From an uncultured Caldilineaceae bacterium (lineage in GTDB: Bacteria > Chloroflexota > Anaerolineae > Caldilineales > Caldilineaceae), in assembly GCA_951813625.1 (NCBI GenBank), contig CATOTS010000012.1, positions 1 to 64,000 on the forward strand: DNA of 64,000 nucleotides, in the 5' to 3' direction. Of this stretch, positions 9,179 to 57,458 are shown one piece after another. The number at the start of each line of letters is the position of its first letter. Within the stretch, counting starts at the first letter, position 1. The translations under genes and the position numbers were made by a program. Below the pieces are notes generated by a model. The model saw nothing but the letters and a program-made list of their open reading frames with translations, searched no databases and was not told the origin of the DNA.

Positions 9179-9378
9179 GAATTCGATTGTATCACGTCTC
9201 TTTTGGCGGCTCAATTGATTGCCTTTGGCCGGGGCCTGCAGTCCAAAATCTGGGCACACATTCCTAGACCTCGGATAGCAACGGAGTCATGGCCGGTCCA
9301 CGCTCCATGCTCTGGCAGAGTGGAGGAATACGCTTTCCTTTATCCTTTTGGACGGTCGGGCCTGCGGCCCTCCCTTGT

Positions 9379-9397
9379 GCGGGGGGACTCCCCCCGC
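9379..9397. repeat. GC hairpin of repeat element (copy 1, unit a)
   Basis: The sequence GCGGGGGGACTCCCCCCGC is a perfect palindrome around one central base. It recurs exactly in every module of the three dispersed elements (also at 9571, 37587, 37873, 56934 and 57203). Perfect conservation of both arms in six places suggests that the structure, rather than chance GC content, is maintained or copied. Confidence 0.8.
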
Positions 9398-9570
9398 AAC
9401 GCCCCCCTGATGTTCACTCTCCGCCGGGTGTGGGGTCAATGCGGCCCTGTGCAACCTGCGGCCCTGTGCAACCTGCGGCCCAGCGCCCCGCCCCCCGCAG
9501 TTCCTGGCCACTGGTCACTGGCAACTGTCCACTGCAGTTCTGGACGGTCGGGCCTTCGGCCCTCCCTTGT

Positions 9571-9589
9571 GCGGGGGGACTCCCCCCGC
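9571..9589. repeat. GC hairpin of repeat element (copy 1, unit b)
   Basis: Second exact occurrence of the 19-base palindrome within copy 1. It sits in the same context, with TTGT before it and AACGCCCCCCTGA after it, as in the first unit. Confidence 0.8.
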
Positions 9590-9921
9590 AACGCCCCCCT
9601 GATGTTCACTCTCCGCCGGGTGTGGGGTCAATGCGGCCCTGTGCAACCTGCGGCCCAACGCGCCGCCCCCAAATCAGCGAACGCCACGGCCGCGGTAGGG
9701 ATAGGACTTGTGCCTGCCCTGTGCCCCCCAAAGCCGGTAGACAATTCCAGCCACCGCTGGCATGAATTCCACGCCAAACGATTTCCACCCCAAATGTGGG
9801 ATGCACCCCCGGTCTTCGGGCGCCCTGGGGCTAGAGGCAGGTCGAATTCTCCGCTGCACGCCGCGAACCAAATGGCAGTACTGAGCGTCATAAACCTTTA
9901 GGAAAATAGAAGGATCAGAAT

Positions 9922-37441: not shown

Positions 37442-37586
37442 GGGTGCAGTCCAAAATTGGGGAGCAGATTCCCATGCCCCGCGTTGCGATGGAGCCTCGG
37501 CCGTTCCACGCTCCATTTTCTGGCAGACTGCAGGAATACGCTTTCCTGTATCCTTTTGGACGGTCGGGCCTGCGGCCCTCCCTTGT

Positions 37587-37605
37587 GCGGGGGGACTCCC
37601 CCCGC
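37587..37605. repeat. GC hairpin of repeat element (copy 2, unit a)
   Basis: Exact 19-base palindrome GCGGGGGGACTCCCCCCGC, as in the other copies. Confidence 0.8.
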
Positions 37606-37872
37606 AACGCCCCCCTGACACCCCTCCACCCGCCGCCGGGTGTGGCTTCTAATGTAGCCCTGCGCAACCGGCAGCCCAGCCCCCCGCCACCGTGCGTGCG
37701 CGTTTCCAGCGTATCGCCAACACCAGCGTGCCTACACGGCCGGGCGTGCGCGTCGCCAGCCGTTCGCGCGCTCGACCGTCAGCCGCCGCCCCCTGCAGTT
37801 CCTGCTCACTAATCCCTGCCCCCTGCCCCCTACCCCCTGCAGTTAGACGTTCGGGCCTGCGGCCCTCCCTTG

Positions 37873-37891
37873 TGCGGGGGGACTCCCCCCG
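37873..37891. repeat. GC hairpin of repeat element (copy 2, unit b)
   Basis: Exact 19-base palindrome, 286 bases after the first in this copy. The spacing equals the length of the internal tandem module. Confidence 0.8.
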
Positions 37892-38224
37892 CAACGCCCC
37901 CCTGACACCCCTCCACCCGCCGCCGGGTGTGGCTTCTAATGTAGCCCTGCGCAACCGGCAGCCCAGCCCCCCGCCACCGTGCGTGCGCGTTTCCAGCGTA
38001 TCGCCAACACCAGCGTGCCTACACGGCCGGGTGTGCGCGGCGCCAGCCGTTCGCGCGTTCGACCGCATAGGCCCCGCCTTCTGCAGTTCCTGACCCCTAA
38101 GCCCTAACCCCTGCCGTTCCGGACGTTCGCCCCTGCGCCTCTCCCAAAAATCGGCAACAATTTCAGCCGCCGCTGGCATGAATTCCACGCCAAACGAATC
38201 CCGTCCCAAGAGTGGGCTGCACCC

Positions 38225-53478: not shown

Positions 53479-54917
53479 TCAACCCGCCTGCCACTTGTCG
53501 TACACCTGCAACCCGCGGCTCTCGCGCACGCCGTCCCGCCAGGCCTCCTTGTGGTTGTGCGTGCGCTGAAACTTGATTTGCAGGCCGGAAAAAACCGGCT
53601 CCTCATGCCGCCCGTACCACCCCTCCAGTTCCTGTTCCAGTCTGTCCTGAATCCCTGTAAACTCATCCCGGCCGGCGCGGTTGTAGCGCTCACCCGGGTC
53701 GCTTTCCAACTCGAACAGGTCGTGGGGGCCGTCCGGGTAACGCTTGACCAGTTTGTGGCTCGGCGTTCGCACCATGCGCAGGTCGCCGTACTCTCCGTAG
53801 CGGGTATCGTCCCATGCGTCCTGGCCGCTGCCGTCCAGCAGATGCCCATAGCTGGCGCCGGCATAGTTGCGGCTTTCGTCCAATCCGATCCCAGCCCAGT
53901 CGCAAATGGCGCGAAACGTGTCGTAATGGTCCACGCAGCGCTCGTTGACCTGTCCGGCGGCGACCAGGCCCGGCGCGCGAATCATCAGTGGCACGCGGGT
54001 AGAAATCTCGTACATATTCAGCGGACGCGTGCTGTTGCCTTTGCCCCAAAAGCCGTTCTGGCCAACCGAGCAGCCATGGTCCGAAGTATAGATCACGACC
54101 GTATTGTCCAACCGCCCGTCGTCCTCCAGCCTGTCCAGCAGCCGTCCAACCTCGCGATCGATTTCGCTGACCGCGGCATAGTAGCCGATGTAGCGGCTGC
54201 GAATCTGCTCCTCGGTCGGTTGGTCTCCGTCGGCCAGGCCCTCATTGCGTTGCCATGTGTGGGGGCGGTAAGGAGGTATATCCCTGAATTCGGCGTCGGC
54301 GAAACGGGCGGTCAGCTGTGGGTCATGGGTTTCGGCCTGGTAGGGCGAATGGGTGGCGATGTAGCCCACATTGAGGAAAAACGGCTGCTCCCGCGGCGCG
54401 CTATCCAGAAACTGTAACGCGTAATCGGTGATGAACGTGCTCTTGTTTCCGTCAGTTCAGGGGTTCACCGTTGAGGTGATAGGTGTAAGCGCCGTTGTGT
54501 TCAAGCTGCCAGCGGGGCAGGCCGAAAGCCCAGTCGAAACCGGGCGGCGTCCGGTGCGAGCGCCCATGTGCCACTTCCCGGACAGGCCGCAGCGATAGCC
54601 GGCGGCGGAAAGAAGCTGCGGCAAGGTCACCTCGCCGGCCAGCCAGTCAAAGTCGCCGATGACCGGTTCCGCCTCCTGGAGCAGTCGTGGATGCCAACCT
54701 GCGAGGGTGTGCGTCCGGTCATCAGGCAGGCACGCGCCGGTGAGCAGACCGGGCAGGGCGTGAACGCGTTGGCAAAGCGGGCGCCTGCCGCAGCCAGCCG
54801 GTCCAGATTTGGCGTCTGCAATTCGCTGTTGCCATAGCAGCCGTTCGCCCACTGGCCGTGGTCGTCGGTGAGGAAAAGGAGGACATTGGGACGGTCCATT
54901 TGGCAAATGCCTGTCAT
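53479..54917 (-). pseudogene. Sulfatase gene, broken by four single-base losses
   Basis: Reading across three frames reconstructs a formylglycine-dependent sulfatase of roughly 480 residues. It has RPNVLLFLTDDHGQW with metal ligands, the CSPAR modification site in PVCSPARACLMTGRTPSQ, DFDWLAGEVTLPQLL, CGLSGKWHMG, FDWAFGLPRWQLEHNGAYTY, FITDYALQFLD, then VIYTSDHGCSVGQNGFWGKG and a sulfatase C-terminus. The frame is lost where a G is missing from a GG near 54681, a C near 54562, and two G near 54458 and 54450. Each loss removes one base of a run, so sequencing error is as likely as true decay. If intact, it would cleave a sulfate ester. It is the last gene of a minus-strand set with FAH and RraA genes. 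Confidence 0.8.
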
Positions 54918-54952
54918 GTCTGGTGAGAGATTCGAGAACTCAATCGTGCCAT

Positions 54953-55767
54953 TCAGGTCACCGGGTTTTCCAGCGTCATGCCGCCGATCGTTATCCTGAC
55001 CAGGTCGCCTCTGTGAAGGGTGAACTCGTCGGGCGGGATGATGCCGGTGCCCGTCATCAGCAGCGCGCCGTGGGGAAAGGCCAACTCCTGCATCAGATAG
55101 GCGGCGAGGTCCGAGAATGTGCGTTTCATCTCGCTGGTCGCCGTGCTGCCGGCGAAAGCGACGGCGCCGTCCCGCTCGATTTCCAGGCTGATGGCCAGGT
55201 CGGTCAACGCGCCGGCGCCGGCCAGGCGGATCCCCGGGCCGACCGCGGCCGAGCCGTCATAGGTCTTGGCCTGGGCCAGGTAAAGTGGGTTCTCGCCCTC
55301 AATGTCGCGGCTGGACATATCGTTGCCGACGGTATAGCCGACGATCTGGCAGGCAGCGTTGATCATGAGGCACAACTCCGGCTCGGGCACATTCCAGGTG
55401 GTGTCAACGCGTATCCGCACCGGCTGACCGTGGCCGACAGTGCGCCAGCCCAACTGTTTGAAGAAGATCTCCGGGCGCTCGGCGTCGTAGACCTTCTCAT
55501 ATACGTCGGCCGCGGTCTCAGATTCGGCCTTGCGCGCGTCGCGGCTGCGCAGATAGGTGACGCCGCTGCCCAGACCTCCTGCTGCGCGTCGAGCGGCGCC
55601 AGCAGCTCCCCGCTCGCCTCTTTTTCTGTCGCCAATTCCGCCAGCAGCGAGGGCAAACTCTCATCCGGCAGAGTCAAAAGGGTGCTGAGCGTTACCCCGG
55701 CGGGCAGCAGCTTGCCGTCAACCGCCCAGCGCGGTCCGGTGGATGCATTGTGGCGGGTGAGATACAT
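54953..55767 (-). pseudogene. FAH-family hydratase/hydrolase gene, frameshifted
   Basis: The N-terminal part (MYLTRHNASTGPRWAVDG, then LDAQQEVWAA) and the C-terminal part (LGWRTVGHGQPVRIRVDTTW, GYTVGNDMSSRDIEGENPLY, LAQAKTYDGSAAVGPGIRLA) lie in different frames. Adding one G near 55561-55566 joins them through VTYLRSRDARKAESETAADV. The domain is the fumarylacetoacetate hydrolase fold. The GNDMSSRDIEGENPLYL block is close to that of 2-dehydro-3-deoxy-D-pentonate dehydratases, so sugar-acid breakdown is a reasonable guess. The gene lies between the RraA-like and sulfatase genes, 35 bases before the latter. Confidence 0.78.
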
Positions 55768-55842
55768 CGGCGCTTGCTCCTTGTTGGTTGTGCGGGTCTC
55801 GATGGTCGAACTGACTGCGGCGGCACGACTCTCCGTCGCCGC

Positions 55843-56639
55843 TCATCCGTTGCGTTTTTTCCATTCTTCGTACTCCGCCCAACCCTCGTCGTTGAGCGGG
55901 TAATATTTGCTCAGCGCGCCGCCCTCTTCCAGTTTGATGCGGCTGAAGACCTCCCACTCCTCGTGGGCCAGGGTGTGTTCGAGCACGAGAGGGATCATCT
56001 GACGGGGTACGACCACCGCGCCGTCGTCGTCGGCGATGATCGCGTCGCCGGGCAGAACGAGTACATTGCTGATTGTCACCGGAACATTCAGCCCCCACGG
56101 AACAGCTCGGCCTGGGAAGCGTAGTTGGGCGTGAAGCCGACCGTCCACAGAGGCACGCCGATCGTCTGAATATTGGGCCAGTCGCGCACGCAGCCGTCGA
56201 CGACGATTCCGGCCCCGCCCCGGCCTTTGAAATAGGTGGTCAGCATTTCGCCGACACAGCCGGTGTAGCGGCTGGCGAAGGCCTGGATGACCAGCACATC
56301 GCCGGTTTCGACCGTCTCGAAAACAGCCCACAGTGCGCCGCGCTTCTCCGCGCCCTCCTGGGCCGCGCCGGAAAAGACATCCTCGCGCTGGGGCATGAAT
56401 GCCAGCGTTACGGCCGGGCCGACGATCTTGGCGCCGGGCGTGCGCGGCAACGGCCCCTGAATGAAGGTCTGGCGGATGCCGAGTTTGTGCATCGTGGCGC
56501 TGGCCGTGGCCGTGCTCACCTGCCGCAGCTGCTCAATCAGATCGATGTCGGGACGGGCGAAGGGGCCGCCGTCTACAGGCAGAGATACGCCCGCAGAGGG
56601 GACCTCGGTGGCCGCGTAGTCGATGCTGGGTCTGCTCAT
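55843..56639 (-). pseudogene. RraA/HMG-aldolase-family gene, frameshifted
   Basis: The first frame runs from the ATG at 56639 (IDLIEQLRQVSTATASATMH, GPAVTLAFMPQRED, FKGRGGAGIVVDGCVRDWPN) to a stop just after AELFRGG. One missing C near 56097-56101 separates it from NVPVTISNVLVLPGDAIIAD and the rest. The DGCVRD motif and PGDAIIADDDGAVVVP are typical of RraA-like proteins, most of which are class II aldolases or decarboxylases for 4-carboxy-4-hydroxy-2-oxoacids rather than RNase E regulators. It is upstream of the FAH gene (75 bases) and probably in the same operon. Confidence 0.78.
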
Positions 56640-56850: not shown

Positions 56851-56899
56851 CAACTGGCAACTGGCAACTGGAAACTGGCAACTGGCAACTGGCAACTGC
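56851..56899. repeat. Heptanucleotide tandem repeat (CAACTGG)n
   Basis: Seven consecutive 7-base units, mostly CAACTGG, one AAACTGG and a last CAACTGC. Degenerate relatives are in copy 1 (about 9499-9545). They resemble the short tandemly repeated heptamers known from cyanobacterial genomes. Confidence 0.9.
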
Positions 56900-56933
56900 A
56901 GTTCTGGGCGGTCGGGCCTGCGGCCCTCCCTTG

Positions 56934-56952
56934 TGCGGGGGGACTCCCCCCG
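56934..56952. repeat. GC hairpin of repeat element (copy 3, unit a)
   Basis: Exact 19-base palindrome GCGGGGGGACTCCCCCCGC in the first module of copy 3. Confidence 0.8.
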
Positions 56953-57202
56953 CAACGCCCCCCTGACACCCCTCCACCCGCCGGGTGTGGGTCCTAATGT
57001 AGCCCTGCGCAACCGGCGGCCCGTCGCCCCGCCACCGTACCTGCGCGATTCCATCGTGTCCCCAACGCGCCGCGTCCCCATGCCGTCGTGTGTGCGTCCC
57101 CCGCCAATCGCGCACTCAACCGTCAGACACCGCCCCCCGCAGTTTCCTGCCCCCTGCCCCTGCCCCCTGCCCCCTAACCCCTGCAGTTCCGGCCCTCCCT
57201 TG

Positions 57203-57221
57203 TGCGGGGGGACTCCCCCCG
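57203..57221. repeat. GC hairpin of repeat element (copy 3, unit b)
   Basis: Exact 19-base palindrome in the second module of copy 3. The module here has lost the CGGTCGGGCC lead-in seen in most others. Confidence 0.8.
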
Positions 57222-57458
57222 CAACGCCCCCCAGATGTACACCCCGCGCCGGGTGTGGCGTCAATGCAGCCCTGTGCTACCTGCGGCCCAACGCGCCGCC
57301 CCAAATCAGTGAATGCCGCGGCCACCGCAGGGGCAGGCCCTGCGCCTACCCTGTGCCCCCCAAGCTGGTAGACGATTCCAGCCGCCGCCGGCATGAGTTC
57401 CGCGCCAGATGATTCCCACCGCAAGATCGGGCTACACCCGCATCCCGCATCAGACCTG

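Follow-up and report, generated by a model that had tools for sequence, protein, structure and literature searches.

Six single-base losses in runs of G or C break the reading frames of three neighbouring genes of an uncultured Caldilineaceae bacterium. All six lie inside 1.65 kb. They are very probably errors of the assembled consensus, which would be locally poor, and not genuine mutations. In the living cell, the RraA-like, FAH-family (fumarylacetoacetate-hydrolase) and sulfatase genes are most likely intact, as they are in its relatives. The analysed stretch, called the window below, comprises bases 1-64000 of contig C12 (159 kb). The assembly of 5.4 Mb in 59 contigs is probably a metagenome bin (3% contamination), and the same-genus relatives of the window are uncultured Caldilineaceae. 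The closest species compared, G011 (JAJDTL010000029.1), shows contiguous synteny across 11.6-64 kb of the window.

The three genes occupy 53.48-56.64 kb on the minus strand and are transcribed in the order RraA-like, FAH-family, sulfatase. None of them has a full-length open frame in the window. The RraA-like gene (55843-56639; PF03737), whose match to the PRK08245 subfamily exceeds the curated cut-off, corresponds to an orthologue of about 268 aa and carries one break in its last third. The FAH-family gene (54953-55767; PF01557; orthologue 271 aa) also carries one break. The sulfatase-family gene (53479-54899; PF00884, SGSH_C; orthologue 474 aa) carries four. A second intact copy elsewhere in the genome was considered and rejected, the next-best sulfatase match having 38% identity.

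The spacer between the FAH and sulfatase genes (54900-54952, minus strand) is about 55 bp long. Most relatives have 470-800 bp at this place, with DUF433 or a DUF433 and DUF5615 pair. The toxin-antitoxin-like pair is present in G011 and several relatives, some others retain the DUF433 part alone, and the window, L025 and L034 lack both. The loci concerned include 54900-54952 of the window, 4789-5386 of L021, and L022, L030 and L031. The spacer is thus a hotspot of gain and loss within a conserved operon.

All six breaks are read on the minus strand, and each consists of one missing base. In the sulfatase gene, the first falls in a two-base G run of the coding strand (54678-54683) and the second in a G/C run (54558-54565). 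The third (54455-54459) and the fourth (54448-54453) both fall in G runs and are fused by aligners into a two-base gap. The FAH break (55567-55572) falls in a G run for which nearly all relatives have four bases, and the RraA break (56097-56101) in a C run of the coding strand. In the alignment with G011, one base is missing after each of 54681, 54562, 55571 and 56100, and two bases at 54453. The double gap is more convincing as two separate losses, near 54457 and 54450, because the flanking bases then match other relatives exactly, which a single gap does not achieve. All the losses fall in short runs, of 2-4 bases. Single-base losses are the only lesions inside the three genes in the alignment with relatives, which contains no stops, larger deletions or insertions. 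The comparison with G011 likewise revealed no premature stop arisen by substitution in any of the three.

None of the gaps is shared by any of the 14 aligned relatives. Orthologues of the sulfatase and FAH genes are open in all 14-15 relatives, with the same gene order. The RraA-like orthologue gives one continuous match in all relatives except L033, where a stretch of N disturbs it. A preliminary description of this DNA had reported six single bases missing from the three genes, and the comparison with 14-15 relatives bears this out. Its coordinates were right within a few bases, except that the FAH break lies at 55568-55571 and not at 55561. It had also proposed looking for intact copies in related genomes, and these were found in the same 14-15 relatives. 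A misjoin at the patch was rejected, as the synteny with G011 runs uninterrupted through it. Another reading holds that the cell reads through the breaks by programmed frameshifting or other recoding. Apart from the breaks themselves, nothing speaks for it. The six sites all differ and have no slippery heptamer in common, and in relatives each of the proteins is encoded by a single frame. This reading is scarcely credible.

The clustering of the breaks is extreme. A gene-by-gene comparison with G011 (257 genes, 288 kb) found an internal break with good flanking identity in these three genes only, and none in the remaining 285 kb or so. The other places that it flagged were start over-extensions, antisense shadow ORFs or fast-evolving spacers. 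Under random placement, the probability that six events share a single 1.65-kb stretch of the 288 kb is ~4e-11. The earlier observation that no such break occurs elsewhere in the 64 kb therefore holds, with positions 1-11.6 kb covered by the codon-usage scan alone. It applies to the window only, as the genome has more breaks on contigs C20, C10 and C5.

Local sequence was rejected as the cause of the cluster. The GC content of the patch (0.64 vs 0.62), its density of G/C runs and its inverted repeats are all ordinary. The stretch has 143 G/C runs of two or more bases per kb, against a window mean of 128, and run content therefore does not account for the cluster. Proximity to a dispersed GC-rich palindromic repeat, whose copy nearest the patch is at 56933, was also rejected, as the remaining verified breaks are 4.5-15 kb away from the closest copy. 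The repeat has the palindromic core TGCGGGGGGACTCCCCCCGCA and occurs in the window at 56870-57400, 9346-9769 and 37554-38115. It is a high-copy element: the 1.26 Mb sampled contain about 7 copies in every 100 kb, and the 187 matches count each palindrome twice. Related copies are also dispersed in G011.

The main alternative to consensus error is a real and very recent decay of the catabolic operon. One inactivation would have relaxed selection, and slippage deletions in the three genes would have followed. The three genes are adjacent and probably function together, the affected bases sit in G/C runs, which are sites of slippage, and no relative has so short a spacer between FAH and sulfatase. 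As slippage sites, however, runs of 2-4 bases are poor, and all relatives have intact copies. Relaxed selection should also be visible in the substitutions. The dN/dS values against G011 are 0.146 for the RraA-like gene, 0.166 for the FAH gene and 0.099 for the sulfatase gene, all of which fall among the values of other genes on the contig. With G012 as the outgroup, the three genes have a ratio of nonsynonymous to synonymous changes (N:S) of 9:60 on the branch leading to the window. Control genes of the contig give 261:1046, and the sister branch gives 12:70. Had as little as 5% of the window branch been neutral, nine or fewer nonsynonymous changes would occur with a probability of 0.0007-0.01, depending on the baseline. 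An early count at sites invariant in other relatives, which gave 14 second-position changes in the window and 2 in G011, was discarded, as the outgroup and control-gene test did not support it.

The three genes are under normal purifying selection, and any real decay is confined to a few percent of the branch at most. Since the nonsynonymous count on the window branch is low, the six indels did not come from ordinary neutral decay. Neither a raised nonsynonymous rate nor a mixture of lesions, as expected of a decaying pseudogene, is found in these genes; six frameshifts that come with no nonsynonymous excess, nonsense mutations or larger indels are unlike neutral decay. Operon decay, which the preliminary description had offered as its alternative, is disfavoured by the branch ratio and by similar islands in unrelated genes, and we consider it improbable. 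Real indels at all six places must have arisen very recently and be of a single kind. An event in which several single-base losses inactivated the operon at once, as might follow a brief local burst of mutation, would fit this description, and it is somewhat less probable still.

In a further reading, the population is mixed. A minority strain with pseudogenes may have been assembled here, or two strains may have been fused into a chimeric consensus. Mixing is possible in an assembly that is probably a metagenome bin. However, it would give substitutions and in-frame differences rather than six single-base losses, and the dS of the patch is ordinary. We regard strain mixture as very improbable, well below operon decay.

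Similar breaks occur elsewhere in the assembly. Frame jumps were searched for with a codon-usage scan of 1.26 Mb of the 5.4 Mb, which was read by eye and tested against relatives. The scan overlooked the RraA break and is thus not exhaustive. Near the start of contig C20, at 1019-2062 (L062), about ten single-base gains and losses fall within 1.05 kb when compared with nine of nine relatives, and this island affects two genes, a DegT-like aminotransferase gene and the one next to it. The alaS gene has one extra base at position 427 of contig C10 (L052), 427 bases from the contig end, again against nine of nine relatives. It is a normally essential gene, and a search for a second catalytic alaS found none. 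On contig C5, one base is gained in a C run at 83947, and one base is lost at 196597 with more indels downstream (to 197184); both are absent from every aligned relative. These two sites (L070, L075) are in solute-binding-protein-like and TrkA/ion-channel-like genes in the interior of a long contig. Other candidates of the scan (C5 at 226419, 294907, 297338, 305186 and 308114; C13; C18; C16 at 4547) were rejected as natural gene boundaries or Thr-Pro repeat proteins. At about 305186 and 308114 of C5 and about 4547 of C16, long Thr-Pro-rich repeats (TPTDTPTAT...) join domains and mimic frame jumps in codon-usage scans.

The same type of break in unrelated genes, one of them normally essential, fits islands of poor consensus and not the loss of one pathway. 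The breaks of the patch are missing from orthologues, they have left no trace of a loss of function, and similar errors are found in unrelated conserved genes. The proposal of a locally poor consensus, which the preliminary description had preferred, is thus supported by unrelaxed selection, by intact syntenic orthologues and by similar islands elsewhere in the assembly. The idea of pure homopolymer deletions is right for this patch, but both gains and losses occur elsewhere in the assembly. Some points count against consensus error. The alaS and C20 faults sit close to contig ends, but the patch is 54 kb into its contig. All six changes of the patch are losses, whereas the other islands mix gains with losses. 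A break in alaS beyond the catalytic core need not be lethal.

Under the consensus-error reading, the consensus of the patch would have been drawn from too few or too error-prone reads, and single bases would have been dropped in short G/C runs. Low-coverage nanopore consensus is well known for indels in homopolymers; such errors depend on coverage and have been described for MAGs (PMC9262707). From the type of error and this known behaviour, we infer that thin coverage, together with a homopolymer-prone platform, was probably the cause.

The finding is almost certainly an ordinary one, an artefact rather than a true gene loss. Taken at face value, the annotation would report the loss of a sulfatase/FAH/RraA set that nearly every sampled relative in the genus retains. 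The genome has poor-consensus islands, which can give even an essential gene like alaS the look of a broken one. Any pseudogene count or claim of gene loss from this genome needs checking against relatives or reads. For annotation, we recommend treating the three genes as probably intact in the organism and flagging the patch.

The breaks resemble recent bacterial pseudogenes in that frameshifts are found in genes that are still recognisable. In contrast to such pseudogenes, the genes described here show no relaxed selection, nonsense mutations or larger lesions, and the same type of break recurs in unrelated genes of the assembly. The second comparison is with the homopolymer errors of long-read (nanopore) sequencing in low-coverage bins. 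Unlike in that system, the runs here are mostly 2-4 bases long and the errors form islands in an otherwise clean assembly, and the match of platform is one that we infer. In both cases, single-base errors split genes whose orthologues are intact (PMC9262707).
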